Origin: Chitinophagaceae bacterium | GTDB lineage: Bacteria > Bacteroidota > Bacteroidia > Chitinophagales > Chitinophagaceae | Length of the DNA: 64,000 nucleotides | Direction: 5' to 3' | Assembly (NCBI GenBank): GCA_023957155.1 | Contig: JAMLHK010000001.1 | Span: 587,169 to 651,168 of the forward strand | In this document: positions 1-22,342 of the stretch, piece by piece | How positions within the stretch are numbered: the stretch's first letter is position 1 | How the letters are laid out: every line of letters begins with the position of its first letter | Made by a program: the position numbers and the translations under genes | Notes under the pieces: model-generated | Seen by the model: only the letters and a program-made list of their open reading frames with translations | Told to the model about the DNA's origin: nothing | Databases searched by the model: none

Positions 1-183
1 TTTTAGCCTGAGCCAGAAACCAAATGCAAATACCAGGGGAAGTCCCAAAAAAAAGGTCAATACCAGTACAAGCAGCTTACCCATGTGGTTGCGCACTTCC
101 TCGTATAGCCAGCCGAGGCTTACCACAGTTTTAGCATTGCTTAAACTGGCTTCAAAAGGCGGGTATGCGCTTGGAGCAAACAT
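1..183 (-). CDS. Membrane protein of unknown function (5' part, cut by window edge)
   Basis: An open frame starts with ATG at 183-181 and runs off the left edge, showing 61 codons without a stop. The first 36 residues are mixed polar and hydrophobic. Residues 37-57 form one strongly hydrophobic segment ending in WLRLK, so a single membrane helix follows a short leading domain, with the remainder of the protein out of view. I do not recognise the family. It may be the chromosomal gene next to the integrated element or part of it. The frame is credible because it is continuous and the next 200 bases upstream are A/T-rich and non-coding. Confidence 0.5.
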   Translation of the reverse strand, partial: MFAPSAYPPFEASLSNAKTVVSLGWLYEEVRNHMGKLLVLVLTFFLGLPLVFAFGFWLRLK

Positions 184-274
184 GGTAGTTAGGCGTTAAA
201 GTACGAGGGTTTAAATAGGAACCGGACAATTGTATAGCACAATTATAATACAAAATTGCGATTATTTACAAAAA

Positions 275-292
275 TACCGGTATATACCGGTA
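275..292. repeat. Perfect 18-bp palindrome in intergenic region 184-381
   Basis: TACCGGTATATACCGGTA is its own reverse complement. Two more ACCGG-type words lie nearby, at 211-216 and 356-361. The palindrome lies between the minus-strand partial gene (start at 183) and the end of the BRCT gene (382), so it could be an operator for the former. Nothing else is evident in this 200-base gap. Confidence 0.45.
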
Positions 293-381
293 AAATTAAC
301 TGAAAATAGTATTTTTCCCTGCACCATGTATTATAGCCCGGCCGCCGGCAAATTTACCGGTTGTCATTATTTGGCAATTTT

Positions 382-1281
382 CTATGCTGACTTTGAGATT
401 AGTGTTTCCATCACATCGTACAGGTCAAATTCATGAACAATTACTATGGGGTTTCCCGCCTTTCGCAGTTTCGTTACTTCTTCTACTTTCCTGCCATAGC
501 ATGTATATACCCAATGTTCGTTTTTGTTATCACAAACAACTAAATAATCAACTGATTTGCTTATAGAGTTAACAGCATAGCCACCATACAATTCAATCTT
601 TTCTGCAATTTCCTTTCTCTTATATTTTTTACTAATACCTGTAATGCAAAAAGTTTTTTCACAAATTGTTATATCGGGGTCAATTTGATAAAATCCATTT
701 GTAACAGATTTTAAATTGCTAACATTTTCATTTCCTGATAACTCTTTGCATAAAACCAATAGTGCACCTCTGTTGTGTTCGGATGGTTTGTTTATGAAGC
801 ATGTCACCGAATTGTATAATTCGTCATAAGGCCATTTATTTTGTAATGATGTATTTTCCTCTAACCAGTCGCTAAGATGTTCTATCTCCCTGTTGTTCAA
901 ATCATCATCTATGGTAATTCCATTAATCAGGCCCAATAATGATTGTATTTTAGGCGCTGTATCTTTATGATACTTTATTCCCTCAATCGTATTGTTGCAA
1001 AGCCATATTAAATTTTTACACTCATCCGCTGATAGATAATTATCTTCCAAAGCAGTTTCAAGGTTTTCAAATACAGATCGGTAAATAGGTTTTCCTTTAA
1101 ACTGATTGTTTTCGTTCATCCATTTGATAATGCCAGAATGTTCTAACTTATTAATGATTCCATCACATTTAACCCCTTCCAAAATTCCGGAAAGGATACG
1201 AAGATTTTTTTCAATGGTATGATTTATCATGTATTTGGTATAGCTGCCGTCATCGTATTTGTTCAATTTATTTAGGTCCAT
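382..1281 (-). CDS. BRCT-domain protein
   Basis: This is a 299-residue protein. Its C-terminal part, from about residue 205, reads as a BRCT domain of the DNA ligase (LigA) type: a first strand with CITGISKKYKRKEIAEKIE, a GGYAVNSISKSVDYLVV core, then the GRKVEEVTKLRKAGNPIVIV region. BRCT domains bind phosphopeptides or DNA ends in repair and replication proteins. The first 200 residues are mostly helical and not recognised; there is no ligase or nuclease motif. Similar BRCT-ended proteins are common near phage-like and mobile regions of Bacteroidota. The start (ATG at 1281) is the first in frame, and the gene stands alone on its strand. Confidence 0.8.
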   Translation of the reverse strand: MDLNKLNKYDDGSYTKYMINHTIEKNLRILSGILEGVKCDGIINKLEHSGIIKWMNENNQFKGKPIYRSVFENLETALEDNYLSADECKNLIWLCNNTIEGIKYHKDTAPKIQSLLGLINGITIDDDLNNREIEHLSDWLEENTSLQNKWPYDELYNSVTCFINKPSEHNRGALLVLCKELSGNENVSNLKSVTNGFYQIDPDITICEKTFCITGISKKYKRKEIAEKIELYGGYAVNSISKSVDYLVVCDNKNEHWVYTCYGRKVEEVTKLRKAGNPIVIVHEFDLYDVMETLISKSA

Positions 1282-1366
1282 CGGTGAAGTTTAATCAGTC
1301 AACGACTATAAGATTGTTGGCGTATTTTTCATCACTTCTTTTTATCAAATGGCAAAAAATAACAAA

Positions 1367-1390
1367 GCATACAATAATTAAATTGTATGC
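1367..1390 (-). terminator. Rho-independent terminator of the repressor gene
   Basis: Arms GCATACAAT (1367-1375) and ATTGTATGC (1382-1390) form a 9-bp perfect stem with a 6-base loop. On the minus strand it is followed by a T-rich run (1351-1366). It lies 40 bases past the stop of the minus-strand gene at 1430-1963. Confidence 0.7.
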
Positions 1391-1429
1391 TCACCAAACC
1401 CTTATTTGTAATGAAAAAAAATCCCTGCC

Positions 1430-1963
1430 TTACATGCCTGCGGGTGTGTCCGCTTGGAGCTGTCGCGCTACAACATCGTTCAGCGCTTTGCTTGTTTCTT
1501 CTCTCACCATTTCCAAATTCCGTTTCTGAACCGTTGCCAGTGTTTTGGCTCCCAGGTCAGTTAAAACGGTTAGCTGTGCCCGGTTCAATCGTTGCGCCAC
1601 AAGTAGCTCGGCTAAATTAGCGCTGATGATTTCATGCATCTGCTTTTGCATTTGTTCGAGCATGATGCGATCCCGCTCCAATAGTTCTATGTATTTTTTA
1701 TTATCCGATTTCTCCTGATAGTTTCCTGGTCCAATATCCTCATTTTGCGAAAATGTTCCACGTGAAACTTTTTTTAAACTTTCAGAAAATACACTATAGA
1801 ACCTTCTCAAAAAATCTTCTGTAGGCTTTCTTTTTTTATTTAGATAGCTGCTAACATTCCCTTTTGGCTCACCTGTAGCCTTTACTATAGCTGCATTCGG
1901 AAACCTGAGTTTTAGCGAAGCAACATCTTCATAAAATGCATCTATCTCATTTTGTGTAATCAT
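1430..1963 (-). CDS. XRE-like helix-turn-helix repressor
   Basis: The protein has 177 residues. Residues 17-60 look like a divergent Cro/CI-type helix-turn-helix: an ATGEPKGNVSSYL recognition region, then NKKRKPTEDFLRRFYSVF. The C-terminal half is rich in heptad-like Leu/Met/Gln (about residues 90-135), suggesting coiled-coil oligomerisation. The gene is divergent from the small-gene operon that begins at 2064. The shared 100-bp region holds a strong rightward promoter overlapped by an inverted repeat, the layout of a phage or ICE genetic switch. I infer that it represses the rightward operon and perhaps the serine recombinase. It ends at a clear terminator. Confidence 0.7.
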   Translation of the reverse strand: MITQNEIDAFYEDVASLKLRFPNAAIVKATGEPKGNVSSYLNKKRKPTEDFLRRFYSVFSESLKKVSRGTFSQNEDIGPGNYQEKSDNKKYIELLERDRIMLEQMQKQMHEIISANLAELLVAQRLNRAQLTVLTDLGAKTLATVQKRNLEMVREETSKALNDVVARQLQADTPAGM

Positions 1964-1990
1964 CCAATATTTTAAAATAAAAAAAAGTTA

Positions 1991-2005
1991 TTCAAAAGTT
2001 TTGAA
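1991..2005. promoter_or_regulatory. Candidate operator for the divergent repressor
   Basis: TTCAAAAGTTTTGAA is a perfect inverted repeat with 7-base arms and one central base. It overlaps the -33 element of the rightward promoter, so a bound repressor would block RNA polymerase. Assignment to the 1430-1963 product is inferred from position. Confidence 0.5.
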
Positions 2006-2030
2006 ATGTTCTCAAATAGTTTTATATTTG
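2000..2030 (+). promoter_or_regulatory. Bacteroidota-type promoter of the small-gene operon
   Basis: TTTG (2000-2003), 19 bases, then TATATTTG (2023-2030) match the TTTG-N19-TAnnTTTG consensus of the Bacteroidota primary sigma factor. The first gene starts 34 bases downstream. Confidence 0.65.
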
Positions 2031-2063
2031 CTTCCGTATTCGTTTTTAACTAATTCCAAATAT

Positions 2064-2309
2064 ATGAATTTAAGTGAACGTGCAATTTCTGCTATAAGGC
2101 ATAACATTAAGTGCATTGCGGCTCTTATGGTGGAATTTAACAGAGGGCAGTGGACAATACAAGACTGGTTAGATCCTGATCATAAGTTTCATTGTCAACT
2201 TGTGCAGATGACTTCATTGCGAATCATCTCGGAATATACTGGTTTGTCCAAGGATGAAATTTTGGAAGAAATTCCTTCTGATGCTGAGCGATTGCCAACA
2301 GCAGTATAA
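2064..2309 (+). CDS. Small hypothetical protein, first gene of the element's early operon
   Basis: It encodes 81 residues from ATG 2064. An upstream ATG at 2001 in the same frame is rejected because it lies within the promoter, upstream of the likely transcription start. The protein is mainly helical, with LSERAISAIRHNIKCIAALM at its start and SEYTGLSKDEILEEIPSD near its end. The latter resembles the 'sense codon-like' tails of small phage regulatory proteins, but I do not recognise a family. As the first gene behind the repressor-controlled promoter it may regulate or excise the element. Confidence 0.65.
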   Translation: MNLSERAISAIRHNIKCIAALMVEFNRGQWTIQDWLDPDHKFHCQLVQMTSLRIISEYTGLSKDEILEEIPSDAERLPTAV

Positions 2310-2380
2310 TGTCGTAAAAATACTAAGTAGATTTTCTTATTTATACACCCTATCGAATTAATTACCAAAAGTTAAACCCC

Positions 2381-2578
2381 ATGCCGCGTCCTATAACCCT
2401 TAAAACGATACAGGAGCATCATGAGTGTGTTTGCGGTCGTAACGAAGTTGAAAGCTATGAGCAATTGTTAAGATGGCAGGATTTGAAAGGATACAAGAGA
2501 AGGAAGTGTAAAACCAGCGGTTCGCGGTTTTGGTTCATCAAAATAAATTATTCAACCTGTAATTGTAACGAGATATGA
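2381..2578 (+). CDS. Small Cys-containing hypothetical protein
   Basis: It encodes 65 residues with five cysteines: CVC near residue 17, one at 44 and CNC near the end. The centre is very basic (KGYKRRKCKTSG). The cysteine spacing does not make a clear zinc ribbon. The stop overlaps the next start by ATGA (2575-2578), which suggests translational coupling and supports this as a real gene. I do not recognise the function. Confidence 0.5.
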   Translation: MPRPITLKTIQEHHECVCGRNEVESYEQLLRWQDLKGYKRRKCKTSGSRFWFIKINYSTCNCNEI

Positions 2579-2814
2579 AAACCTTCCCAGGTGCAGAAAA
2601 GTTAACGCCCGATGAATTAAAGGTGGTTGAGCGGCTTAAAGGGGTAGAGCGTAGTTCAGTTTTTGGTATCATGATCGGTAACGTAATGGCCCGGCCACAT
2701 CCGGTTATTATTCGTCAGTTGATTGCTGATATCAAATCACAGTGTGAGGATGCACCGGAAGTTGTGTGTGAAATGCTGGGCTTTAAAACATTTCTTTCCA
2801 TTGTAAAGCTGTGA
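2575..2814 (+). CDS. Small hypothetical protein
   Basis: It encodes 79 residues. An acidic start (LTPDELKVVERLKGVERSS) is followed by a hydrophobic helix and a cysteine-containing tail (CEDAPEVVCEMLGF). It is coupled to the preceding gene through a 4-base overlap and to a tiny membrane peptide gene 3 bases downstream. It belongs to the early operon of the serine-recombinase module. No family is recognised. Confidence 0.55.
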   Translation: MKTFPGAEKLTPDELKVVERLKGVERSSVFGIMIGNVMARPHPVIIRQLIADIKSQCEDAPEVVCEMLGFKTFLSIVKL

Positions 2815-2817
2815 TAC

Positions 2818-2910
2818 ATGGATTATCATCTTTTGTTAAATGTTTTACTCTGCATACTGGTTTACGTGTTTTTCAGGGTTGTTTTTTGGGAGAAAGATAA
2901 TGAGATGTAA
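2818..2910 (+). CDS. 30-residue single-helix membrane peptide
   Basis: ATG at 2818 follows the stop of the previous gene by 3 bases, and TAA is at 2908-2910. The peptide begins MDYHLLLNVLLCILVYVFF and ends with a charged tail, the typical form of a one-helix membrane microprotein. The tight spacing implies translational coupling. Small hydrophobic peptides at this place in mobile elements can be holin-like, toxin-like or regulatory; the sequence does not decide among these. Very short length keeps confidence moderate. Confidence 0.45.
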   Translation: MDYHLLLNVLLCILVYVFFRVVFWEKDNEM

Positions 2911-2996
2911 AATTTTGCATATTGAGGTATCATCAGTCCCTGGTATTCCTGCCGGGGAAATTTTAACCGCTTTTAGTCCAATTGCTTTTTTTAACG

Positions 2997-3033
2997 GGGG
3001 CGGCTTTAAATATGAATTTGGATCAGCCGCCCC
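2997..3033 (+). other. GC-rich hairpin in the gap before the repeat-protein gene
   Basis: GGGGCGGCT (2997-3005) pairs perfectly with AGCCGCCCC (3025-3033), leaving a 19-base loop. There is no U-run after it, so it is more likely an RNA-stabilising or attenuating hairpin than a terminator. The rest of 2911-3068 shows no convincing gene. Confidence 0.45.
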
Positions 3034-3068
3034 TACTTTAGACTGGAATACCCTTAAAGTTAATTTAT

Positions 3069-3779
3069 ATGGCAGAATTTAAAGATTTAAAAAAGAAAAT
3101 TACTGATAAAGCAAAAGAGCAAAATGCCTGTTCCGAACAGTATAGAGCTGCTTTAAGGTCCGGATCTATTGAGGATTTGTTATCTGTTGTTATCCGCAAT
3201 ATGGAATGGTGTGTTCGTAATAAAGTAGTTAATGGAGATATTTTAATTGAATTTGGCATTGATCTTTTACAGGCAAACGGGGTGTATGTGGGCTATAAAG
3301 GTTCAGTTAAAACAGATAAAGATGTTTGGGTTTTCAAATCTAAAATTGATGCCATAGAGGCATTGCCTAACTCCACCATAAACCGGGTAGTGAGCTGGGA
3401 GAACTCCACCATAAATGAGGTAGTGAGCAGGGATAACTCCACCATAAACCGGGTAGTGAGCAGGGATAACTCCACCATAAACCGGGTAGTGAGCAGGGAT
3501 AACTCCACCATAAACCGGGTAGTGAGCTGGGAGAACTCCACCATAAATGAGGTAGTGAGCTGGGAGAACTCCACCATAAATGAGGTAGTGAGCAGGGATA
3601 ACTCCACCATAAACCGGGTAGTGAGCGGGGATAACTCCACCATAAACCTTTCGGGAAACAATATCCCTAAAAAAATTGACGTAAACGGAAGCGGTATTGT
3701 AAGGGACTTAACTAAGCGTAAGATTTATATATATAAATCCAGGTTTGAAATTGTTGAATTATTGGATAACGAAAGCTAA
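3069..3779 (+). CDS. Tandem-repeat protein with 11-residue NSTINxVVSxx units
   Basis: The protein has 236 residues in three parts. Residues 1-100 form a helical, Lys/Glu-rich domain. Residues 101-193 are eight complete 11-residue repeats (NSTINRVVSRD and variants) plus a partial ninth. Residues 197-236 are a basic C-terminal segment. The regular spacing of small and beta-branched residues, and the single-step variation (R/E at position 6, RD/WE/GD at the end), fit a beta-solenoid stalk like those in phage and surface proteins. This is inferred, not recognised as a named family. There is no signal peptide. The DNA repeats are almost identical, so copy number could change by slippage. Confidence 0.7.
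   Translation: MAEFKDLKKKITDKAKEQNACSEQYRAALRSGSIEDLLSVVIRNMEWCVRNKVVNGDILIEFGIDLLQANGVYVGYKGSVKTDKDVWVFKSKIDAIEALPNSTINRVVSWENSTINEVVSRDNSTINRVVSRDNSTINRVVSRDNSTINRVVSWENSTINEVVSWENSTINEVVSRDNSTINRVVSGDNSTINLSGNNIPKKIDVNGSGIVRDLTKRKIYIYKSRFEIVELLDNES
3369..3647 (+). repeat. 33-bp coding minisatellite (8 full units plus a partial)
   Basis: Each unit begins AACTCCACCATAAA and continues with CCGGGTAGTGAGC or the TGAGGTAGTGAGC variant. Units abut without spacers and keep the reading frame (33 = 11 codons). Variants are mosaic: R/E at position 6 and RD, WE or GD at positions 10-11 recur in shuffled order, as expected from recombination between units. Both strands are open here because the unit length is a multiple of three. 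Confidence 0.95.
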
Positions 3780-3785
3780 AGCATT

Positions 3786-3839
3786 AATGTCCTGGGCCGG
3801 GTACCCGAGATAGGTCTAAAGCAGGCAAACCCCGACATT
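3786..3839 (+). ncRNA. Candidate structured leader before the SSB-like gene
   Basis: AATGTC (3786-3791) pairs with GACATT (3834-3839), and GGG (3794-3796) with CCC (3830-3832), giving an interrupted closing stem. Inside lies CGGGTACCCG. A second short hairpin with GGGGA/TCCCC arms follows before the start at 3912. The 132-base gap is long for this tightly packed operon, which suggests a regulatory leader. This is fold-by-eye only. Confidence 0.3.
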
Positions 3840-3911
3840 TTGAATTGAAAGCATAAGTACATATTCATTAACCGGGGAAGGCTGGTCTATCCCCTAAAAT
3901 TATACATTGAA

Positions 3912-4511
3912 ATGGGTTTTGATGATTTTCAGGAAAGGAAATATTGCGGTATAAGAAACGGTAAAATTATATATAAAGATGATGCAGGTGTTATAAATGA
4001 AAAGAGATCCGTGTCAGGGTTACTAACAAATGTTTTTGTTAAAAGAAATGGTAAGTATGGTCCTGAATTTCATATAGAGCTGTATGATAAATGCTATTAT
4101 CACCTGCAGATGTTTTTAAATAGTGGATATGCCAGGGCGTTTTTATGCATCATGAAAAACATTTCACCGGCACAAAATATAACCATTCGACCAAATGCGC
4201 AGGCAGACGAAAACGGAAAGGTGCGGCAAAGTTTAATGTTATACCAGGATGGGCAGGTATTGAAGTGGTATTATAAGAAAGATGTGAATGGCTTACCCTC
4301 CCCTGAAGCTGATATATTAAAAGACAAAAACGGGGTTGAGTATGAAGGATGGAATTATAACAGCCAGACAGAATTTTTATTGAAAGCAATGGAAGAATTT
4401 AAGGTATTGCTGATACCTAATAAGGTGCGGCAAAGAAACGAAAGTACAGCATTGATTAAGGGGGATATGCCCACTATTGATAGTGATATAGAGGATGATT
4501 TACCTTTTTAG
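3912..4511 (+). CDS. Probable single-stranded-DNA-binding protein (SSB-type acidic tail)
   Basis: The protein has 199 residues. The body (about 1-160) is rich in aromatic residues and beta-strand-like segments without a recognisable catalytic motif. The C-terminus ends DSDIEDDLPF, the acidic peptide ending in P-F by which bacterial and phage SSB proteins recruit replication and repair partners. A single tail motif is weak alone, but together with the basic/aromatic body and the location in a phage-like module it makes a single-strand-binding or annealing role likely. The stop is 2 bases from the next start, so the genes are co-translated. Confidence 0.55.
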   Translation: MGFDDFQERKYCGIRNGKIIYKDDAGVINEKRSVSGLLTNVFVKRNGKYGPEFHIELYDKCYYHLQMFLNSGYARAFLCIMKNISPAQNITIRPNAQADENGKVRQSLMLYQDGQVLKWYYKKDVNGLPSPEADILKDKNGVEYEGWNYNSQTEFLLKAMEEFKVLLIPNKVRQRNESTALIKGDMPTIDSDIEDDLPF

Positions 4512-4513
4512 AT

Positions 4514-4732
4514 ATGTTTTCGGGAGATGGAAATAACAAACCGGTTAAAGTATACGATTGCAGTTTGCCCTTGCCAGACCGAAAAGATAAGGTTAGGGAA
4601 TTTGCAAGCGTTTCCCAGGCAAGTAATTTCCTGTACGTATCCCGGAAAGTAGTACTAAGGTCTGCAAGAACGAAAACACGTGTTTTCTCTGAAACATTAG
4701 GAAAGGAATTTACAATCAGGTATAGTAATTAA
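4514..4732 (+). CDS. Small basic protein, possibly NUMOD-like DNA-binding
   Basis: It encodes 72 residues. The middle (EFASVSQASNFLYVSRKVVLRSARTKTRV) resembles NUMOD-type motifs found in phage homing and replication proteins, where '.F.S..EA...L.VS...I......' forms a small helix-turn-helix. The match is partial and I treat it as a hint. The gene begins 2 bases after the SSB-like gene and ends 10 bases before the next. Confidence 0.5.
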   Translation: MFSGDGNNKPVKVYDCSLPLPDRKDKVREFASVSQASNFLYVSRKVVLRSARTKTRVFSETLGKEFTIRYSN

Positions 4733-4742
4733 ATTTTGATAT

Positions 4743-4994
4743 ATGGAAGATTTTCATGAAGGACTTAGCAGATCAAGAAAAATTGTGATGGATGCTGTAG
4801 CAAAAAGTGAAAGCTTTATCTTTTTTAGCATAGTGGATAATGATACGGTCGTTGGGTCAACAGTTGGCAGTGACAGGGCGCATGCCAATTTATTGATATC
4901 GCTTGCAGCGCGTGATCCTGGTTTTGCAGAATTATTGATAAGGGTTGGCGCAGAAGTTGAGAAAAAGAGAGTGGTTCCATTTGGTAAAAATTAA
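4743..4994 (+). CDS. Small hypothetical protein
   Basis: It encodes 83 residues without recognised motifs. A central stretch (SFIFFSIVDNDTVVGSTVGSDRAHANLLISLAA) alternates beta and helix. The C-terminus is basic (KKRVVPFG). It sits between closely spaced genes of the element, with 9 bases to the next, so co-transcription is clear. The function is unknown. Confidence 0.5.
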   Translation: MEDFHEGLSRSRKIVMDAVAKSESFIFFSIVDNDTVVGSTVGSDRAHANLLISLAARDPGFAELLIRVGAEVEKKRVVPFGKN

Positions 4995-5003
4995 ATCAAT
5001 TAT

Positions 5004-5390
5004 ATGACAACAATAGCAACGCCGAATACTTTGGTAAGCCTTGCCACTAAAAAGAGTTCCGAAATAATTCGCCATGAGTTTACGAAGGACGAATTAATTA
5101 TGATGAAGGATACCATTACGCACAACCTGGAAGTATTGCGGAAAAAACAGCAGGAGTTAAAAAACATTAAGCAGGAATTTAAAGGGGAAATGAAGCCTTT
5201 ATATGCAGAAAACGAATTGCTGTTGGAAAATGTAATCCGTGGGTTTGCTGATACTGAAAAAATGGTGCTATTGGTTCCGGATTATGAAAATAAGATTATG
5301 GAATTGTATGATGAAGATACCGGTTTAAAGGTGGGTGAGCGCCGAATGCTCATGAGTGAATTTCAGTTAGAAATGAATTTTCCTAAATAA
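5004..5390 (+). CDS. Coiled-coil hypothetical protein
   Basis: The protein has 128 residues. Residues 30-75 are a heptad-patterned helical region rich in Lys, Glu and Leu (HNLEVLRKKQQELKNIKQEF), and the C-terminal third is mixed beta. It resembles small phage-encoded proteins of unknown function and has no enzymatic motif. It lies 9 bases after its neighbour and 7 bases before the next small gene. Confidence 0.55.
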   Translation: MTTIATPNTLVSLATKKSSEIIRHEFTKDELIMMKDTITHNLEVLRKKQQELKNIKQEFKGEMKPLYAENELLLENVIRGFADTEKMVLLVPDYENKIMELYDEDTGLKVGERRMLMSEFQLEMNFPK

Positions 5391-5397
5391 AAATTCG

Positions 5398-5547
5398 ATG
5401 AACAGTAAGCCGTGCCCGGAAAAGCCAATGCAAGCTATAAAACCTGTAAATCAGAATGTTGCGAAAGTGAAGAAAATACTATCTCCACCAGAAGAAGCAT
5501 TTTTGAAAATGCTGGCTAAGGCTTATGTGAAAAGTATTTTATCTTAA
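5398..5547 (+). CDS. 49-residue basic hypothetical peptide
   Basis: ATG at 5398 and TAA at 5545-5547, fitting exactly between its neighbours (7 bases after the one, 14 before the serine recombinase). It reads MNSKPCPEKPMQAIKPV then a basic helix ending AKAYVKSILS. The tight spacing and the lack of any other frame in the gap support it. It could be a recombination directionality factor, since these are small, basic and usually next to the recombinase, but nothing in the sequence proves this. Confidence 0.45.
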   Translation: MNSKPCPEKPMQAIKPVNQNVAKVKKILSPPEEAFLKMLAKAYVKSILS

Positions 5548-5561
5548 CCCAAATTTTAAAC

Positions 5562-7082
5562 ATGAAAAAGGCGGTAGGATACATACGGATAAGCGACAAA
5601 GATCAAAGCAACTTTTCCATTGATGCACAAAAAAAGCACATCTATGATTATGCGAATAAGCATAATACTGATATCGTTTCATTTTTTATTGATGATGGTA
5701 AAAGTGCTAAGAATTTCGACCGACCTAACTGGCGGCAGTTAGAGGAATTTATACGGCAGCATTTCCGGCAAATAGATTATCTCATTGTTGTTAAATATGA
5801 TCGTTTTTCACGCAATGCGTCCGAAGGCTTGCATAAAATCGAGATGCTTGAGCGCAGGTTTAAAATTATTATAGCTTCTGTATTTGAACAGATGTTTATA
5901 GACTATGATTCTCCTTTTTTCTTTAAGCAGCGGGCCGATATGCTTGTGAATGCAGAATTTGAGCTGCATGTTATTCGTGATCGTACCAGGTTTGGAATGC
6001 ATCATGCCTTGAGTGAGGGTAGGTATGTTAGTATGGCTCCATACGGGTATAAAAATACCCGGGACGAAAACAAGAAGCCTCTAATTGTTGTTGATGAAGC
6101 AAGGGCGATAATAGTTAAAAAAATTTTTGAGGATTATTTATCAGGTGTTCCCACCATAGAAATATATCGGCAGGCTAAAGCATTGGGGTTGTCTTTGCGT
6201 GGCCACAGTACAATTCCTGACATTTTAAAGAACCCGGTATATGCTGGAATGGTAAATGTGCCGGCATATCGAAAAGAGCCTGCAAAGATCGTAAAAGCTA
6301 TTCATGAGCCTATTGTAAGTGAAACAATGTGGTGGGAATGTCAACGCCGGTTAGGAGTTTTGAAAAATAGAACAGTATTGAATGAATCTGTGCCCTTAAG
6401 GAGCATTCTGCATTGTGAACATGGTATACCGCTTACGGCAGGAGAAAGCCGGGGAAGGTCCCATAAGTACTGGTATTATAAGTCCAATCATTGTGGGTTG
6501 AATGTGAGCGCTAAAAGAATCCATGATAAGTTTGATGAGCTTTTGAAAAACTTAAGCCTGGAAGATGAGTATATCAACTTTCTTAAAAAGGAATCTGCGG
6601 ATGAAATGGAAGTGTTGCTAAAGGAGCGTAATCGTAATTTAAAATCCTGTAAATCCGGATTATCCAAGCTTGAAAATGATATAACCCGTTTGGAAGAAAA
6701 ATTCTTTTCTGACCAAATAAACCACGATACCTATACAAAATGGAGTAAGATATACCAGTCTCAAATTGGTGCTTTACGGAATGATTTAACCCGTTTGGAA
6801 TCAGGATATGATCATTACTGGAAGCTTTACAATGCACAGTTATACAAGCTTTCAGATATTCATTACCTGTACTACAAAATGGATTTATTGGATAAGAGGC
6901 TATTTGTTAAACAGGTGTTCAACTCCACATTGTATTATTGTAACGATGTTTATCGAACCGCTTACTTATTGGATATTTTAAGACATAACGAATTGATATT
7001 AAAAGAAAAACAGTTGCTTTATATTGATGATAAAATCAATAAAAACAACTGCTTTGCAGTGGGTGCCCCGGAACGGAGTTGA
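5562..7082 (+). CDS. Large serine recombinase (site-specific integrase)
   Basis: The protein has 506 residues with the resolvase/invertase catalytic domain first. YIRIS places the catalytic serine at residue 11, and DRFSRNASEGL carries the conserved arginines. A 'Recombinase' domain follows (about 160-270, RGHSTIPDILKNPVYAGMV), then a zinc-ribbon-like region with only a few cysteines, and a coiled coil (about 350-420). It would integrate and excise the small-gene module to its left. The last codons, about 501 to the stop, lie within a tRNA-Leu fragment, so the natural C-terminus may have been altered by a later integration. Length is normal for the family (450-600). Confidence 0.92.
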   Translation: MKKAVGYIRISDKDQSNFSIDAQKKHIYDYANKHNTDIVSFFIDDGKSAKNFDRPNWRQLEEFIRQHFRQIDYLIVVKYDRFSRNASEGLHKIEMLERRFKIIIASVFEQMFIDYDSPFFFKQRADMLVNAEFELHVIRDRTRFGMHHALSEGRYVSMAPYGYKNTRDENKKPLIVVDEARAIIVKKIFEDYLSGVPTIEIYRQAKALGLSLRGHSTIPDILKNPVYAGMVNVPAYRKEPAKIVKAIHEPIVSETMWWECQRRLGVLKNRTVLNESVPLRSILHCEHGIPLTAGESRGRSHKYWYYKSNHCGLNVSAKRIHDKFDELLKNLSLEDEYINFLKKESADEMEVLLKERNRNLKSCKSGLSKLENDITRLEEKFFSDQINHDTYTKWSKIYQSQIGALRNDLTRLESGYDHYWKLYNAQLYKLSDIHYLYYKMDLLDKRLFVKQVFNSTLYYCNDVYRTAYLLDILRHNELILKEKQLLYIDDKINKNNCFAVGAPERS

Positions 7083-7117
7083 ACCGTTACGACCGTTGCG
7101 GGTCACAGGATTTTAAG
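7064..7117 (-). other. 3' part of tRNA-Leu(UAA): probable attachment site (attL) of the ICE
   Basis: On the minus strand the sequence runs from anticodon loop CTTAAAA (7117-7111) through the 3' anticodon stem TCCTG and a long class II variable arm. It then passes a T arm with stem AACGG/CCGTT and loop TTCAACT, and reaches the acceptor strand CCGGGGC plus discriminator A (7064). Upstream of the loop the 5' anticodon stem is absent, so the tRNA identity stops exactly at the anticodon loop. This is what a tyrosine integrase leaves when it integrates into a tRNA 3' end. The intact gene should be at the far end of the ICE. Confidence 0.85.
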
Positions 7118-7203
7118 TGTCCGAAAATACTTTTCTTCATTTAACTTATGTGTGCTTATTTTAACTTAATGAATTGATTTTCAATATTTTAAACTATATT
7201 TCT

Positions 7204-7243: not shown

Positions 7244-7313
7244 GATTGTTTGAAAACTGTTTGAAAATTTTTGTGTGTGGTTGATTTAGTGTTAATGTTT
7301 AAATTTTCAAATT

Positions 7314-8693
7314 ATGTCTGTTACATTCAGCATTTTCCTCGACAAACGGAGGATCATTTCAAAAACCGATACTTACCCGATAAAGTTAAGGGTAACTTAT
7401 CGAAGAAAAAGCAAGGAGTACGAAATCGTACACAAATTGACGGAAGAGAATTTCAATAAAATTGAAGCTCCCCGGCTCTCGGAGTCCTTGCAAAAAATAA
7501 AGGACGACCTTAAAGAGATCAAAGGCATGATGGCTGTTGCTGTCAAAAAAGTATCTCCATTTGATTTTTGGGTTTTTAATCGTGATCACATATTACCCAA
7601 CAAGCTTTTTGTACAAAAGAAAACCAAGAAACCGTTGGCTGTGTCTTCTGAAACCGGAGCGGATACTTTTGACTATTCTGAATACGAAAAGCTATTCCCC
7701 ATCATTAAAGAAAGCCATGATGAAATTGGGAGAATATCGGGTGTCTATTGTGATTATATCAAGCAGCTTATCCGGGAGAAGCGCATAGGCAGTGCTACAA
7801 AATACCGAGATAGCTACAGTGTTATCAAAAGTTTTGGTGGTAATATGTACTTTCAGCACATAACGGTTGAATGGCTTAGATCATTCGAAGGCTGGATGCT
7901 TGGTAAAGGGCGCTCACGGGCTACCGTGGGAGGAATTTTACGTCACCTGCGGTGCATATTTAATGAGGCAAATCACAAAAAAATTATCAATAAAGAAATG
8001 TGCTATCCATTTGGACGGCGCAAGTACCAAATTCCAACGGGAAAGAAGCGAAAGAGGTCATTAGAATTAGCCGACATTAAGAAATTATATTTCAGCGAAC
8101 CTTCCTGCGATTCGGAAGCCTATGCTAAGGCGCTTTGGTTCTTCATGTATTTCGGCAATGGGATGAACCCTAAAGACGTTGCCTATCTGAAATACAAAAA
8201 CATTGACGGTGAGTATTTCTCCTTTTACCGGCAGAAGACAGACCTCACTTCACGCCATGATCCGGCGCTTATCACGGTATATATAAATGAGGATATGCGT
8301 ACCACTATTGAGCGGTATGGCAATAAGGACAGAGATCCCAATAACTTTGTATTTCCGGTATTAAAAGAAGGGATGACCCCACTGGAGGAATATTTTGCAA
8401 TACCGCGCTTCACCCGTTTTATTAATGACTGGATGAAGAAAATTGGTAAGCGGCATGGCATTGAACTTGCCCCGACAACCATTGTGACAAGGCATAGTTT
8501 TTCCACAATTATGAAGCGTTCGGGCGCAAGCACCGAGTTTATCCAGGAGGCTTTGGGACACATGGATAAAAAGACAACAGAAAATTACCTGGGCAGTTTT
8601 GAGCAGCAAGTCAAAAAGGAGTTTGCACACAAATTAGAGGCGTTTAAAAATGACCGTGAGGAATTAGAAGTAGTTGATGCGGATATATTGTAG
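7314..8693 (+). CDS. int: Tyrosine recombinase (ICE integrase)
   Basis: The protein has 459 residues with the Bacteroidota ICE layout: an N-terminal arm-binding domain (MSVTFSIFLDKRR), a SAM-like core-binding domain (about 145-235) and a catalytic domain. Box II reads TRHSFST, the later histidine is in LGHMDKKTTENYLG, and the nucleophile is Tyr 425. At box I the usual arginine (G-L-R) is Asn 285 (GNGMNPKD), a substitution also tolerated in IntDOT-type enzymes. The gene starts about 200 bp inside the tRNA-Leu fragment and reads into the element, as expected for an ICE integrase. Confidence 0.93.
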   Translation: MSVTFSIFLDKRRIISKTDTYPIKLRVTYRRKSKEYEIVHKLTEENFNKIEAPRLSESLQKIKDDLKEIKGMMAVAVKKVSPFDFWVFNRDHILPNKLFVQKKTKKPLAVSSETGADTFDYSEYEKLFPIIKESHDEIGRISGVYCDYIKQLIREKRIGSATKYRDSYSVIKSFGGNMYFQHITVEWLRSFEGWMLGKGRSRATVGGILRHLRCIFNEANHKKIINKEMCYPFGRRKYQIPTGKKRKRSLELADIKKLYFSEPSCDSEAYAKALWFFMYFGNGMNPKDVAYLKYKNIDGEYFSFYRQKTDLTSRHDPALITVYINEDMRTTIERYGNKDRDPNNFVFPVLKEGMTPLEEYFAIPRFTRFINDWMKKIGKRHGIELAPTTIVTRHSFSTIMKRSGASTEFIQEALGHMDKKTTENYLGSFEQQVKKEFAHKLEAFKNDREELEVVDADIL

Positions 8694-8802: not shown

Positions 8803-9603
8803 TCATAATTTAAAGTGCCTTTTTGCTTTCCTGAAAACGTCGTCAAATCCGGGTAATTCAAAGACCTGATTTTTCAATTTCTTCTCCCATCCTTGTTTAA
8901 GGTTCTTTTCCTTTGCCAAAACTTTCGCTTCAAACTGCGCAGGATCGTGCTTTTTGTTTTTTGCCTTACGTTCAAATTCCGGTTTGTGATAGCGGGTATT
9001 CTTCCCTTCATATTCGGTCAGATACCAAAAGTCAAACAAGTCTCTCGGTTCCGTTCTGCCCATCAGGGCAGTCATTTTTTCAATGAGGACTTCCGATAGT
9101 GAGTAACATTGCAGATGAAAAGACTGTTTAGGTAAATCGGAATATAGAATGATTACTTTTCGCTGCTCTACCGGATATTCCAATATTTCGCCACGGGTAA
9201 TGTCAATTTTAACGTCCCGGCTACTGATATTACCCTGAAGCGGCCCCATGTAGTTGATGTAAAAGGCAAGACTTCCGCTTATATGCGTATTCGATTCGCC
9301 GAATTGCAGGGAGATATTGGCTTCCTCTTTTACAAAGGCATATACCTTTTCAAATTCCTGCAATAACTGCTCGTTGGTTAATTTTTCGTCCAGTAAGGTA
9401 AAGTCCAGGTCTTCAGAAAATCGGTATTCGGGAAAGTATATTTTCTTTAGCACCGTTCCACCTTTGAACACAAGCTGTTTTGATAATAATTCATTATTGG
9501 CAATGCCTAACAATATCCAGCTTAGAATATAATCCTTCTCGATCTGCGTATCTTTCAACTTATTTTTTGCGGCAACCGCATTGATTTCCTTAACGTGTAT
9601 CAT
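8803..9603 (-). CDS. abiEii: AbiEii-type nucleotidyltransferase toxin
   Basis: The protein has 266 residues. The nucleotidyltransferase signature is clear: FKGGTVLKK followed by RFSEDLDF (about residues 47-70), the GS/G-x-D-x-D active site of the AbiEii/AbiGii family. AbiEii toxins act with AbiEi as type IV toxin-antitoxin systems that abort phage infection; the family transfers nucleotides to cellular targets, tRNA in the MenT relatives. The gene begins 3 bases after the antitoxin stop, on the same strand, so the pair is one operon. Length is in the normal range for short AbiEii. Confidence 0.92.
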   Translation of the reverse strand: MIHVKEINAVAAKNKLKDTQIEKDYILSWILLGIANNELLSKQLVFKGGTVLKKIYFPEYRFSEDLDFTLLDEKLTNEQLLQEFEKVYAFVKEEANISLQFGESNTHISGSLAFYINYMGPLQGNISSRDVKIDITRGEILEYPVEQRKVIILYSDLPKQSFHLQCYSLSEVLIEKMTALMGRTEPRDLFDFWYLTEYEGKNTRYHKPEFERKAKNKKHDPAQFEAKVLAKEKNLKQGWEKKLKNQVFELPGFDDVFRKAKRHFKL

Positions 9604-9606
9604 ATC

Positions 9607-10434
9607 TTAAGTGAATATCGGTGAGGTAATGTCTTCCAAATCTATGTTCTGCTGGATATTCCAGCGGCTGATCATTTTTCCCTGCTTTTCGTAAGAAGGT
9701 TCTAACAGTGCGAATGACGGGCTTTTTAGCTGCTGCAAGCGTTCAATAATAGGGCTGTCTATTTGCAGCAATTCCAGTAAAAAACCCAGTCTTTTAATTA
9801 CAGTCTGAGCATTAAATTTCTTACAATACTCCAGAAGTTTTTCATAATCAATTTTGTCTTTTACCTTAAATAATGCCTTACTTATTTCGGCTATACCTCC
9901 GCCATAATCGGGCTTATACAGGCAATCAACAAACGTTTTTTCAAGGTCGCTTCCCCGCACTTTAGTAAAGCTGTCAATCCAGACGTTCTTTTCGCCGAAA
10001 AAGTGTGTTTTGTTATGGTAGATGAACTGGAATTGCCTGTTCCCAATCGCGAGAACGGAGGGCTTAATCTGCTTATCTACTACGACCTGTTCAACCATTG
10101 AAGGCTGCGTGATAAGACTGTGTAATTCCAATGCGCTGTAATAGCCTATATAGTAATTTGCATTGCCGGCAAGATAGCCCGCTACTAAATGTGCGTTGGG
10201 AAAATAATTGCTGGCTTCCTGATCATACGGAATGATCCAATAAAGTCCGTCCTTCAGCCGCAACAGCAGTCCACGATTTACCATATCTCTCATAAGTTTG
10301 CGGACGGCATCAGCCGATGAATTTTTAAGAAGGGATGTCGCTTCTGCCAGGGTAAAACCCGGCTGGTTCAGGCTTGTGAAATGCCTGATCACTTCAGCAG
10401 ATTGCGTGGATAGTGTCTTATGTCTTGTATCCAT
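9607..10434 (-). CDS. abiEi: AbiEi-type antitoxin and autorepressor
   Basis: The protein has 275 residues. The N-terminal winged helix (about 1-75, with GFTLAEATSLL, DAVRKLMRDMVNRGLLLRLKDGLYWI) is the DNA-binding domain. The rest is the AbiEi C-terminal domain that neutralises the toxin (YYIGYYSALELHSL, DLEKTFVDCLYKPDYGGGI). AbiEi proteins repress their own operon by binding inverted repeats. Two copies of a GACTTT-N-AAAGTC operator flank the promoter here, which supports autorepression directly. It is the first gene of the pair. Confidence 0.92.
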   Translation of the reverse strand: MDTRHKTLSTQSAEVIRHFTSLNQPGFTLAEATSLLKNSSADAVRKLMRDMVNRGLLLRLKDGLYWIIPYDQEASNYFPNAHLVAGYLAGNANYYIGYYSALELHSLITQPSMVEQVVVDKQIKPSVLAIGNRQFQFIYHNKTHFFGEKNVWIDSFTKVRGSDLEKTFVDCLYKPDYGGGIAEISKALFKVKDKIDYEKLLEYCKKFNAQTVIKRLGFLLELLQIDSPIIERLQQLKSPSFALLEPSYEKQGKMISRWNIQQNIDLEDITSPIFT

Positions 10435-14803: not shown

Positions 14804-16579
14804 TCATATTTGATCATAAGTGAATACAACGTTTTGTAATATAGGTGTGATCACAAGCGGATCACCTTTTTTTGTTTGCCTGCCAGTTTCACTAATTAAA
14901 TGAAGATTTGTTTTTGCTCGAGAGCAGATCACATATAATAACTTTTGAGAAGCCTCTGTGGCATTTCCTGAAAAAATTTCATTCCAATGAGGGATATATC
15001 CATTCAGTAAACCGTAAGCAATAACAGTTTCAAATTCTTCACCTTTTACACCAACACAAGTGTTTATTATGACACCAGTCATTTCCCTATAAAAACTCTT
15101 AAAAGTCTGTATATCACTGGAAATTGTGAATTGGGGATCATTTAATCTTTTTTCAATTGTATCAAAAAATAGTTTTCGACTTGCGACGAGATTGGGATAT
15201 TGTAAATAATTCACGCCGATAGCATTAACGAATTGATCAAAGCAATCATTTAAATAGTCTATCCCTTCATTTTCTTGTGATTTAATTGAGTTTATTAGTT
15301 TTAATAATGCCCTTTCACTTGAATACTTATCAATTAATTCACCATTAATTTCCACTCTAAAATTATCAATTAGTTCAGTAGCCCACCTATATCTTAAAGA
15401 GTAAATTTTAGGATTAGGTTGCGTAAGCAATAGCCTGGATAATTTATACCAAATGTTTTCCCGATTTCTCGACATAGGAGCCAATCCCGATGCATCAAAA
15501 TTTACATCTGGAAGTATGGCCCTTAGTTTTTTAGAAATAGTTGTTATTAACCACCATTGAGGAACAAGTACACAAATTTCATCTTCTGTTATCCCTTTAT
15601 CAAGGCTTACCTTAATCAATCGGGCAATTTCATCAACGAGCTTAGAATGAGCGATTGAACTATTAAATGTTATACAACCCATTTCTTTAGCATTACTGCC
15701 GACAGATCTAATTGCTATTTTTTGAGTTTGAAAATGACTGTAAAAATCAATAATTCTTTGGCATGTCCTATAATTGCCAGTTAAGGTTAAAGGAGTAACT
15801 GGCATATCGTCAATCTCGGCTCTCACTTCTTCAATACTTTTTGCTACACCGCCTAATGAAGCATAGATAGCTTGATCTGTATCTCCGACCAGAAAAAGAG
15901 ATGTCTTACCTTTTCCAGCTTTAACGATCAGTGAGATAATGGCATATAATAAATCCTGTGTGTCCTGATATTCATCCACACAAATCAACTTGAATAAATT
16001 TGATAAAGTAACTTGGATCTTCGGGTGAGTAATTAAAATCCTATACGAGTAGTAAAGAAGAAGGTCGAAGTCAATTAATTTTTTCTTTTTTAGAATTTCG
16101 TGATATTCTTTTAATAAATTCTTCTGAACTGATTTAGGTTCAACAAAACTGCCATCCCTATTAAAACGAAGGTTAATGGGGTCAATAGGCTTTAGTCTAT
16201 ACTTGACTTTTAGAGCGTCCAAAAGATCAGAACAGAAAGTTTCATCGGCAATAGAATATCCATTTCTTAGCTCTGGCAAATAACAAGAATGTGGCTTTAT
16301 AACCCATTCAAGGCAAAATGAATGCAACGTGCCAGACCAAATTCTATTGCTATTTATTCCCATTGCATTTAGGCGATGAAAGATTTCTTCAGATGCCCTT
16401 ACAGTGAATGTTAATGCTGCTACTCTTTTCTTATTGTGTTCAGCTAACTTTGATAACTCATAAGCAAGTTTGTGAATAATAACTCTCGTTTTCCCGCTAC
16501 CAGGACATGCTGTCAGCAGCACATGCCCATCCTGCTGAACGGCGATTTTCTGTTCATTATTTAGCTTAGCTAAAATCAC
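14804..16579 (-). CDS. gajB: UvrD/Rep-family helicase, GajB-like (Gabija defence)
   Basis: The protein has 591 residues of superfamily 1A: Walker A ACPGSGKT (24-31), motif II VDEYQDTQ, motif III VGDTDQAIYASLGG, motif IV in the NYRTCQRI region, motif V GVKGEEFETVIAYGL, motif VI YVICSRAKTNL. GajB proteins partner with an OLD-type nuclease GajA in the Gabija anti-phage system and are proposed to sense DNA ends or nucleotide loss. The ATG overlaps the gajA stop by 4 bases (ATGA, 16576-16579), so the pair is translationally coupled. It is longer than the described GajB (about 490), mostly in the C-terminal half. Confidence 0.85.
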   Translation of the reverse strand: MILAKLNNEQKIAVQQDGHVLLTACPGSGKTRVIIHKLAYELSKLAEHNKKRVAALTFTVRASEEIFHRLNAMGINSNRIWSGTLHSFCLEWVIKPHSCYLPELRNGYSIADETFCSDLLDALKVKYRLKPIDPINLRFNRDGSFVEPKSVQKNLLKEYHEILKKKKLIDFDLLLYYSYRILITHPKIQVTLSNLFKLICVDEYQDTQDLLYAIISLIVKAGKGKTSLFLVGDTDQAIYASLGGVAKSIEEVRAEIDDMPVTPLTLTGNYRTCQRIIDFYSHFQTQKIAIRSVGSNAKEMGCITFNSSIAHSKLVDEIARLIKVSLDKGITEDEICVLVPQWWLITTISKKLRAILPDVNFDASGLAPMSRNRENIWYKLSRLLLTQPNPKIYSLRYRWATELIDNFRVEINGELIDKYSSERALLKLINSIKSQENEGIDYLNDCFDQFVNAIGVNYLQYPNLVASRKLFFDTIEKRLNDPQFTISSDIQTFKSFYREMTGVIINTCVGVKGEEFETVIAYGLLNGYIPHWNEIFSGNATEASQKLLYVICSRAKTNLHLISETGRQTKKGDPLVITPILQNVVFTYDQI

Positions 16580-21034: not shown

Positions 21035-22342
21035 TTATTGGTTATTGGAAATGTTCTTTCTCTTTTTCTTTTTCCTGGCCTTTTTCTTCAACTGTCGGGG
21101 TACATAATCGCTCGTGTGTTCCGGTTGCATCAGGGCATCCAATATGCCTTCACTTTCTTTGGAATTTGGTGTTGGCTGAAAGGCATTTTCATTGACTTTG
21201 GTTTCTGCCGCAGCGATAGCCTTCGGCTGTAACCCAATGCCTTGTTTTGCGGGTGGTTGCGACAGTAAATCCTGCCGCAAAACATCTTGCGGCAGACATC
21301 TTTCCTGTATGGCTTTAGCACTGTATTGCTTGCCTAATGCGCTCCCGTTGAAGACACATTTGGTTTGATGATCCACGTAGGTTATCCCGTATATCAAACC
21401 TGCATCGTTCTGACGCAGGGCTACGTAGATGCCCTTCCTTTCGAGCTGCTTCACTAACTCATCCAGGTTGGGCGTTTTGCCGATAAATAATCTGTCTATT
21501 TCGTTTTTGATACGGGCTTTGTGAGGCTGGCGTTTTGCATCATTCGGTGCATATTTTTCCTCCAGTTTTTTCAGAGTCGGCTGGTTGTAAAAGTCGCTGG
21601 CTTTTATGGGTACGCCTATGGGTTTTCCGTCTTCATCCAGTATGCGATATACCAATCCCCCGCCCTTAAAAATTCTGGAATCTTCGCTGCCGCGATCAGC
21701 CATTACATTGTACTGTTTCAGTACCGCATTCAGTTCCGGCAGGCCGGTGTAATGGTACTTATGCAGCACCGCATCGAGTACATTGGTGATAGCTCTTTTG
21801 GTTTCTGTGCGGCCGTATTGCACTTTCCTCACATCAACAGGTTTTAGCCTGAACGCTTCCCTTTTTGCATGGGCATCCGCAATCACAAGACCAAACATTT
21901 TTTCAATCTCTTTTCTTGCGGGTTCTGACTTGCGGATGCCCAGGTGATGCAGGTCAATGCGGTTACCATTGGACTTAATATTCGTAGTGACTATGTGGAT
22001 GTGCGGATGGCCTGCGTCGTGGTGCTGATAAACAAGATAGGGCTGCTCGCCAAAGCCTAATTTCTGCATATAGACTTTGGCAATGTTCATTAGCTTTTCC
22101 CTGCTCAAGTGCGTTTCCGAAGGGTCAAAATTGAGAGAGATATGTACATTCTTTCGTTCAACATCCTTGCGTAGATCTGTCCTTTTAAGCAGGTAGCCCA
22201 GCTTAATTTTCAGGCTCATTTCATCTGCATTCAGGGGAAAATTTTCTGCTCCGATACACTCCGCAACACCTTCTTTAATCTTGTTCTCATTGTAGTTGAA
22301 AATACGGTGCATAGAGTGGCCGGGCTTGATTACTGCAACCAT
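21035..22342 (-). CDS. mobB: Relaxase MobB
   Basis: The protein has 435 residues. It carries the relaxase signature in order: IFNYNENK with the probable catalytic Tyr 17, HLSREKLMNIAKVYMQKLGF, and the metal-binding histidine cluster HPHIHIV (112-118). It nicks the ICE at oriT and remains bound to the strand that is transferred. The C-terminal part (about 250-435) is basic and ends in a run of lysines. It overlaps mobA by 13 bases and precedes the coupling-protein gene, so the three are one operon. The likely nick site is upstream of mobA. Confidence 0.92.
   Translation of the reverse strand: MVAVIKPGHSMHRIFNYNENKIKEGVAECIGAENFPLNADEMSLKIKLGYLLKRTDLRKDVERKNVHISLNFDPSETHLSREKLMNIAKVYMQKLGFGEQPYLVYQHHDAGHPHIHIVTTNIKSNGNRIDLHHLGIRKSEPARKEIEKMFGLVIADAHAKREAFRLKPVDVRKVQYGRTETKRAITNVLDAVLHKYHYTGLPELNAVLKQYNVMADRGSEDSRIFKGGGLVYRILDEDGKPIGVPIKASDFYNQPTLKKLEEKYAPNDAKRQPHKARIKNEIDRLFIGKTPNLDELVKQLERKGIYVALRQNDAGLIYGITYVDHQTKCVFNGSALGKQYSAKAIQERCLPQDVLRQDLLSQPPAKQGIGLQPKAIAAAETKVNENAFQPTPNSKESEGILDALMQPEHTSDYVPRQLKKKARKKKKRKNISNNQ

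Follow-up and report, generated by a model that had tools for sequence, protein, structure and literature searches.

How do two unrelated integrative elements come to share a single tRNA gene, and what becomes of the gene and of the integrases? The question is raised by a stretch of 64,000 nucleotides from a Chitinophagaceae bacterium (GenBank assembly GCA_023957155.1, contig JAMLHK010000001.1, positions 587,169 to 651,168), in which a fragment of tRNA-Leu(UAA) separates the gene of a large serine integrase from an integrative and conjugative element (ICE). The whole stretch, called the window below, makes up the final 64 kb of contig C1 in a draft genome of 26 contigs (88% complete, 4.35% contaminated). 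We consider it very likely that tRNA-Leu(UAA) was used by two unrelated integrases, at two sublocations within the one host gene, and that the serine integrase, as the anatomy of the locus suggests, exchanged its C-terminal tail in the process. The features around the junction are:

1..7063: the 7 kb on the integrase side of a myovirus-like prophage of 44 kb (C1 ~550,205 to 594,245)
5562..7082, plus strand: large serine integrase in its lysogen form, 506 aa, with Resolvase and Recombinase domains
7063..7077: prophage att core GTGCCCCGGAACGGA, with a 14/15 repeat at the far end (C1 ~550,205-550,219)
7064..7117, minus strand: 3' half of the host's own tRNA-Leu(UAA), displaced when the ICE entered (attL side), identified by congener identity; the 5' half is on contig C23
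7080..7082, plus strand: TGA at which the serine integrase ends, read from the complement of the tRNA T-loop and lying to the host side of the prophage att core
7104..7118, minus strand: 15-nt core ACTTAAAATCCTGTG at which the ICE crossed over, covering the anticodon loop and the 3' anticodon stem; a second copy lies at the right end on C23
7118..64000: ICE from its left end to the end of C1, where the contig stops (right end on C23), with relaxase, coupling protein (T4CP), TraG and TraJ
7245..7271, minus strand: arm-type repeats of the ICE integrase, inverted relative to the right-end copies on C23 (C1:594413-594439 matches positions 30-56 of the right-end query, 96%)
7314..8693, plus strand: ICE tyrosine integrase, with Phage_integrase and Phage_int_SAM_5 domains

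The divided tRNA-Leu(UAA) gene

The first-pass annotation had read 7064-7117 as a 3' fragment of tRNA-Leu(UAA), and comparison with congeners bears this out. The region is 100% identical over 55 nt to the intact tRNA-Leu(UAA) genes of G010, G003 and G005 (E ~2e-22 to 3e-22); among the 11 congeners compared, seven more are 85-91% identical there and one gave no match to the 3' half. A 23-nt probe from the 54-nt fragment had zero matches, with up to 3 mismatches allowed, in 100 shuffles of the window. The identity does break in the anticodon loop, as had been noted: tRNA-like letters reach 7118, beyond which the 5' strand of the anticodon stem is absent. ARAGORN called no complete tRNA in the 64 kb.

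As the window ends where C1 ends, a right end of the ICE on C1 itself was ruled out, and it was sought elsewhere and located on C23. A whole-genome search, in which 150 of 231 candidates were scored, gave 42 tRNA matches. Applied to 12 loci cut around class II or odd candidates, ARAGORN recognized a single intact tRNA-Leu(UAA), which lies on C23, 1.8 kb short of the contig end; no further intact copy was found among the candidates scored. The order on C23 is tRNA-Gly(GCC), a tRNA-Leu 5' half ending at CTTAAAATCCTGTG, a 22-nt spacer, the complete second tRNA-Leu(UAA), a terminator and the repeats TTTTCAAACAATTTTCAAACA. Joined over the common 15-nt core, the 5' half on C23 and the 3' half on C1 give an 87-nt tRNA, the first 86 nt of which match three congeners (86/86). 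The setting is also that of the congeners, as tRNA-Gly(GCC) adjoins tRNA-Leu(UAA) in all nine that were read in detail, and C23 upstream of the break aligns with nine of the nine. Because the halves rejoin to the congener tRNA and inverted arm repeats are found at both ends, the halves are separated by one insertion, or by two in tandem.

The second tRNA-Leu(UAA) on C23 is complete, differs in sequence from the host's and lies 22 nt past the core. It has 7/7 acceptor and 5/5 anticodon stem pairs, and its stems differ from those of tRNA-Leu(UAA) in the nine congeners. The right-end query matched 21 of 394 family genomes, its own included. In one of them, G264 from another genus (g81), the right end is 94% identical and stands behind the 5' half of that host's tRNA, which has another sequence; a 22-23-nt spacer and nearly the same tRNA come with it, so that the spare gene travels with the ICE. 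These comparisons show an ICE that evidently split tRNA-Leu(UAA) at the anticodon loop and carries a complete spare. Use of this tRNA by the ICE integrase, which the first-pass annotation had proposed, is supported by the 5' half and the matching arm repeats at the C23 end. The accompanying expectation that the tRNA would be rebuilt fails, as the complete gene on the ICE replaces that of the host. An intact tRNA-Leu(UAA) elsewhere, with no repeat at the ICE right end, had been named as evidence against the proposal; such a gene exists, yet the ICE itself carries it, with the 15-nt core ahead of it.

The arrangement has the features of tRNA-dependent integration: the core is short (15 nt), the 5' half runs into the spacer and the 3' half into ICE DNA, and neither junction rebuilds a tRNA. 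Two relatives of the ICE integrase (L164 and L151, 47-48% identity) have similar arms beside displaced tRNA-Met and tRNA-Asn 3' halves of ~40 nt, and intact tRNA-Met and tRNA-Asn copies with the same arms lie at right ends elsewhere in the same genomes (L146, L165). Those elements follow the ordinary rebuilding design, whereas the ICE of the window shares only the 15-nt core and supplies the whole tRNA. That this ICE, too, rebuilt the tRNA with its own 3' half, the second copy on C23 being a native tandem gene, is scarcely tenable. Some congeners do have tandem tRNA-Leu-like copies between tRNA-Gly and tRNA-Leu; on C23, however, the 5' half enters the spacer with no 3' half, and neither the stems of the second tRNA nor its recurrence with the spacer behind another host's 5' half in genus g81 fits a native gene. 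Within the stretches read, tblastx (E 1e-20) found no ICE gene homologues beside rebuilt congener tRNAs.

The spare tRNA would be transcribed from the host tRNA-Gly/Leu promoter and would keep the cell able to read UUA. A need for it in most hosts was not borne out, since a 3' half of the C1 type forms 7/7 and 5/5 pairs with the tRNA-Leu(UAA) of 9 out of 10 hosts tested; pairing is poor only with that of G112 and with the G264 5' half. With the latter it pairs at just 5/7 acceptor and 4/5 anticodon positions, against 7/7 and 5/5 in the spare. The spare could thus aid entry into hosts whose tRNA stems mismatch the ICE's own.

The prophage and its family of serine integrases

The serine recombinase had been assigned to an element separate from the ICE and older than it. 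The separateness is clear from a 44-kb prophage with its own far end, and the greater age is plausible only. Prophage genes on C1 (L038 and L037) include those for gpA terminase, portal, tail sheath, tape measure and baseplate. One prophage open reading frame (ORF) within the window, at 3069-3779, contains a 33-nt tandem repeat (3302-3697) that encodes an 11-residue protein repeat.

About 44 kb from the recombinase, at C1 ~550,205, the far end reads TCCGTTCTGGGGCAC, and behind it stands a terminator resembling that of native tRNA-Leu genes in the congeners. The sequence represents the final 15 nt of this tRNA in displaced form, alike at 14/15 positions. The terminator matches that of G001 at 26/28 nt, and one gene further the order is syntenic with G003. 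The integrase combines Resolvase and Recombinase domains with a catalytic Ser and a coiled coil, and Y7, R9 and S11 are invariant in the integrase alignment A1. It accounts for the one Resolvase-domain match in the genome, and none of the genome's 11 matches to PF00589 lies inside the prophage of the window. The prophage is thereby shown by sequence to sit at the 3' end of tRNA-Leu(UAA), with the serine integrase as the sole recombinase found in it. In the elements that could be delimited, the att repeat is just 5-17 nt long, at or around the tRNA 3' end, so that the prophage rebuilds the acceptor end only.

The proposal that two unrelated integrative elements share one target thus holds, both the ICE and the prophage using tRNA-Leu(UAA). 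A plausible order is prophage first, ICE second. The reverse, with the prophage entering the 3' half already stranded by the ICE, we regard as distinctly the less probable. It would have been feasible, as the serine att core (7063-7077) needs the tRNA 3' end alone, which the stranded half keeps, and nothing decisive speaks against it. Recombinases of this type are, however, found at intact, unsplit tRNA-Leu(UAA) genes in L112 and L115, so that the prophage-first order requires no special site.

Homologues of the serine integrase are present in 184 of the 394 family genomes. At 30 other loci a tRNA was called by ARAGORN at the recombinase 3' end in 19, and a tmRNA was recognized by eye in three more, two of which ARAGORN later called; eight of the 30 had neither. 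A family set was then formed from the best 80 of 105 relatives, obtained by a profile scan of genome contigs with 12 aligned integrases. The set overlaps in part with the G-numbered genomes and, going by record titles, consists of Bacteroidota but for one Nitrospirae metagenome-assembled genome (L236). An intact tRNA or tmRNA starting within -60 to +150 nt of the end of the recombinase match was found at 67 of the 80 loci. All 67 are antisense and start -16 to +78 nt from the match end, and 0.17 would be expected from the tRNA density in the rest of the loci. On the upstream side of the recombinase there was a tRNA or tmRNA in 0/80. Extra scans with single proteins and with the alignment A3 added few new loci; one of these (L327) ends in an antisense tRNA near its contig end.

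The targets comprise tmRNA and tRNAs of 10 amino-acid isotypes with 15 anticodons (Val, Ser, Asp, Arg, Met, Leu, Glu, Ala, Ile, Pro). Close recombinases mostly have the same target, and the target changes at least 17 times on a quick tree with 68 labelled rows (77 rows in total, the window and 76 of the 80 loci), the deep part of which is unsure owing to long branches. In L173 and L174 ARAGORN called a tmRNA with an unusually long tag (DAGNCK...), and the tag part of the call may be wrong.

We therefore describe a family of Bacteroidota recombinases that sit at the 3' ends of tRNA and tmRNA genes. In the window, codon 501 (7062-7064) touches the tRNA fragment, and codons 502-506 (7065-7079) and the TGA lie inside it, so that the earlier numbering, which had residues 501-506 and the stop read from the fragment, is correct to within two bases. 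The recombinase gene does overlap the tRNA end, as had been said; the overlap is the rule in the family, and no accident of this locus.

It might be argued that the serine recombinase is a bystander, brought along by other integrases that target tRNA or by phages that merely gather at tRNA 3' flanks. Such genes are general targets of tyrosine-integrase islands according to the part of the literature consulted (PMC4383910). This explanation is nevertheless very improbable given the lack of a PF00589 match in the 44-kb prophage (a point that concerns that element only), the one orientation and narrow distance range at 67/67 loci, the shortness of the att repeat and the agreement of close recombinases on their targets.

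With phiC31, Bxb1 and TP901-1 the family shares the layout of Resolvase, Recombinase, zinc-ribbon and coiled-coil parts and a short att core; the targets here are tRNA and tmRNA 3' ends. Among the matches listed, isolated phages and plasmids included no close relative above 30% identity, the best phages being at most 27% identical. The available parts of a 2018 paper place serine integrases more commonly in coding regions (PMC6109161), and those of a 2025 TIGER/Islander account give 33.8% of islands in tRNA/tmRNA genes with no split by integrase type (PMC12424338). For Sinorhizobium, the excerpted report describes the tRNA-sited integrases as tyrosine integrases but for one, which resembles both a tyrosine integrase and a serine recombinase (PMC11476347). 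The portions consulted of PMC12884075, PMC5704250, PMC8637289, PMC10654092 and PMC6764341 mention no serine integrase sited at a tRNA gene, and the titles and abstract openings listed from open-licence papers name no family of this kind. The 67 of 80 Bacteroidota family members contrast with the statement in print that serine integrases are not known at tRNA genes, and could serve as a source of pairs of integrase and target at conserved sites.

The C-terminal tail of the serine integrase

The viral set comprises 35 loci, of which 19 score >200 bits, and none of these 19 has an intact tRNA at the recombinase end. Five stop no more than 127 nt past the match, mostly in antisense tRNA or tmRNA letters, and we read them as trimmed prophages. 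The other 14 run at least 956 nt beyond the gene, and in 13 of them the ORF continues into a tail such as IEHLTRFLELIRKIA before its stop, with Ala as the last residue in 12 of 13 and Gly in the other. These tailed contigs presumably represent free-phage forms; L325, from the extra scans, has a tail ending in FAA. Among the 67 integrated loci, none has such a tail end; the stop falls within the tRNA gene at 49 loci, beyond it at 17 and ahead of it at one.

Tail-coding sequence was also found at the far ends of integrated elements. Four far ends were located by the att repeat alone (G000, G236 and G111 among the first 8 elements, and G112, which the tail search had missed), and in 4/4 a tail follows the core in the integrase frame and runs to a stop: ILIESHTVFFNLISKVNIA in G000, FQVESLERFLQFISTIKVA in G236, VLEHFGDNSMQELERILLIVSEIIK in G111 and, with a 17-nt repeat only 9.6 kb away, WYEHLVKFMNSILYIKKEICDLGLP in G112. 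The far ends of G020 and G081 were found through the tail, their short cores being seen afterwards, and are therefore not independent evidence. Far-end tails lie 10-45 kb from the integrase. The evidence for the tail is thus made up of 13 viral contigs, of which L252, L254 and L265 have closely similar tails, and of the four far ends that were located independently. In the integrase of the window, the ending ...APER-S of the lysogen replaces ...APER-ILIESHTVFFNLISKVNIA. As the tail occurs in viral contigs, is absent from the 67 integrated forms and is found at far ends, integration changes the integrase C-terminus; attP of these serine integrases is thereby shown to lie, on sequence evidence, inside their own gene, with the tail exchanged on integration. 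Second tail-like frames were seen near the far ends of G236 (~44.37 kb) and G111 (~30.97 kb), reading SLEMFLQFISTIKLI and DLERLLLIINQIM to their stops, and may be left over from earlier insertions at this tRNA.

Integration would join the integrase gene to the host tRNA, where the stop usually falls (in the window, the T-loop complement gives the TGA), and the tail-coding end would be left stranded at the other junction. Excision would restore the tailed integrase.

A regulatory role for this change is conceivable, at somewhat less than even chances. We would put no more trust in a self-switching integrase, in which the helical tail of the phage form is exchanged for an antisense-tRNA tail that sets stability or direction. 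The phage form would then integrate, and the lysogen form would not excise unaided. What is lost could be, for example, a degradation tag or a part needed for attP x attB recombination. There is a hint of a proteolysis tag in the mostly Ala-ending, hydrophobic tails. AlphaFold predicts that residues 510-524 form a helix (block pLDDT 78-79), preceded by a disordered linker at 497-508 (<50), and with a pTM of 0.41 the placement of the helix is uncertain.

The simpler view that the tail is dispensable seems rather unlikely to us. It draws on the many different antisense-tRNA tails of the integrated forms, from which it follows that the enzyme tolerates C-terminal change, and on the far-end tails of G111, G112 and G000, which are just loosely alike. 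Against it, the tail is as conserved as the catalytic domain, which the preceding linker is not: mean pairwise identity among nine phage forms is 0.40 for the tail, 0.41 for the catalytic part, 0.18 for the att-coded linker and 0.10 for shuffles, and 0/1000 shuffles reach the observed tail identity, although the alignment was optimised on these rows, which biases the comparison towards the observed figure. All 9/9 aligned phage forms share one invariant Glu, and a final Ala is present in most viral tails and in 4 of 6 far-end tails, as compared with 5 of 67 integrated forms. If the switch exists, the gene layout would have it built in, one recombination event altering the recombinase: an integration-dependent switch on a serine integrase.

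Several observations weigh against the overall explanation, that two integrases used one tRNA gene and that the serine integrase swaps its tail. That the serine integrase carries out the integration is deduced from anatomy, from att repeats and from its being the sole recombinase found. Thirteen of the 80 loci lack an intact tRNA at the recombinase 3' end (L171, L186, L196, L198, L201, L203, L225, L230, L236, L238, L242, L243 and L244); three of these reach a contig end in no more than 150 nt, and partial matches account for four. As for the tail, L248 has one without the Glu motif, the viral contig L256 has none, the G111 tail ends in Lys, and that of G112 runs on to a final Pro. The far end was not found for 10 of 16 elements (G060, G026 and G205, searched to 60 kb; G026b, G040, G241, G287, G396, G204 and G041, searched over shorter distances). 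At ~21.9 kb in G205 there is a 17-nt partial repeat, with one mismatch, of the tRNA-Ser 3' end and flank, inside an ORF and with no tail directly after it, which is neither a clear far end nor clearly chance. A hidden Markov model from 12 viral tails, too short for significance, scores weakly and leaves the G000, G111 and G112 tails unlisted at E<20. On the side of the ICE, G264 has the right end, but a close integrase and the 57-63 kb segment of the window were not found there. Core and arms are present at both ends of the ICE, but on two contigs with a gap between: the tails of C1 and C23 have no exact overlap, and the last genes of C23 are only 85% similar to part of the last kilobase of C1, a paralogous stretch. 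As these end genes are similar and not identical, a second ICE in tandem at tRNA-Leu is possible. The draft state of the genome and the partial scoring of tRNA candidates add to these points.

Known parallels and the gene content of the ICE

In the sections consulted of PMC10865867, tRNA-dependent lysogeny is described for the mycobacteriophages Fionnbharth and Gaia, which have a tyrosine integrase and a short anticodon core, do not rebuild the tRNA and carry a tRNA of the same isotype, while long-core relatives rebuild. As far as that description goes, the ICE of the window shares the tyrosine integrase, the short anticodon core, the unrebuilt tRNA and the element-carried tRNA; it differs in being a Bacteroidota ICE and in placing the spare 22 nt past the core, after the host tRNA-Gly and tRNA 5' half. 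Integration of the tRNA-dependent kind, described for mycobacteriophages, would thus extend to a conjugative element. NBU1, named in the same source, uses a Leu-tRNA gene at its 3' end; the window ICE has CTnDOT-like conjugation genes and a Leu-tRNA target like NBU1, but enters at the anticodon loop and brings a whole spare tRNA. A looser parallel, from the accessible part of PMC4405046, is a Vibrio island in recA that carries a divergent recA.

For the tail exchange, phage BPs offers a precedent: in the portion consulted of PMC4557955, its attP lies within the repressor ORF, and integration removes a C-terminal ssrA-like degradation tag. Here, too, attP lies in an ORF whose phage-form C-terminal extension is lost on integration; unlike in BPs, the serine integrase itself is altered, not a repressor. 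Archaeal suicidal integrases of the SSV type have attP inside the integrase gene, which integration cuts (PMC8371274, as consulted in part). The likeness lies in an attP within the integrase gene and in the editing of that gene by integration; unlike the SSV type, a tyrosine integrase split in two, the serine integrase keeps its catalytic and DNA-binding parts in one ORF and exchanges its tail alone. Should the switch prove real, it would be a bacterial counterpart of these enzymes.

The ICE is of the CTnDOT type, with integrase, relaxase, coupling protein and type IV secretion system (T4SS) genes in one element:

19029-21023, minus strand: T4SS coupling protein
21035-22342, minus strand: MobA/VirD2-type relaxase
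51206-53674, plus strand: TraG P-loop ATPase
56065-57273, plus strand: homologue of CTnDOT TraJ

Its cargo includes RND and P-type efflux genes and two pairs that are probably defence genes, AbiEi/AbiEii (8803-10434) and an AAA/OLD-TOPRIM gene with a UvrD helicase gene (14804-18690), a pair that we take to resemble Gabija.

Other tRNA-linked sequences were seen in passing. L039 (~8966-9386, C9) has a second element, with an integrase 48% identical to that of the window's ICE, a displaced tRNA-Asn-like 3' half alongside and, further upstream, a GIY-YIG-like reading frame. L050 (1001-1061, C20:382066-382126) contains a 61-nt tRNA-like sequence that scores 34.6 bits as a tRNA, without an ARAGORN call. 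Degenerate copies of the 5' part of tRNA-Leu occur in L067 (9.8-9.97 kb), L068 (9.74-9.96 kb), L072 (9.68-9.96 kb) and L071 (~250 nt past tRNA-Leu). In these the anticodon arm is replaced by a near-perfect hairpin, the stem letters of which vary by species while the pairing is kept. A small frame, which we presume to be GIY-YIG-like, comes right after tRNA-Leu in L068, L071 and L072, and the degenerate copies together with this frame are possibly a tRNA-linked GIY-YIG element.

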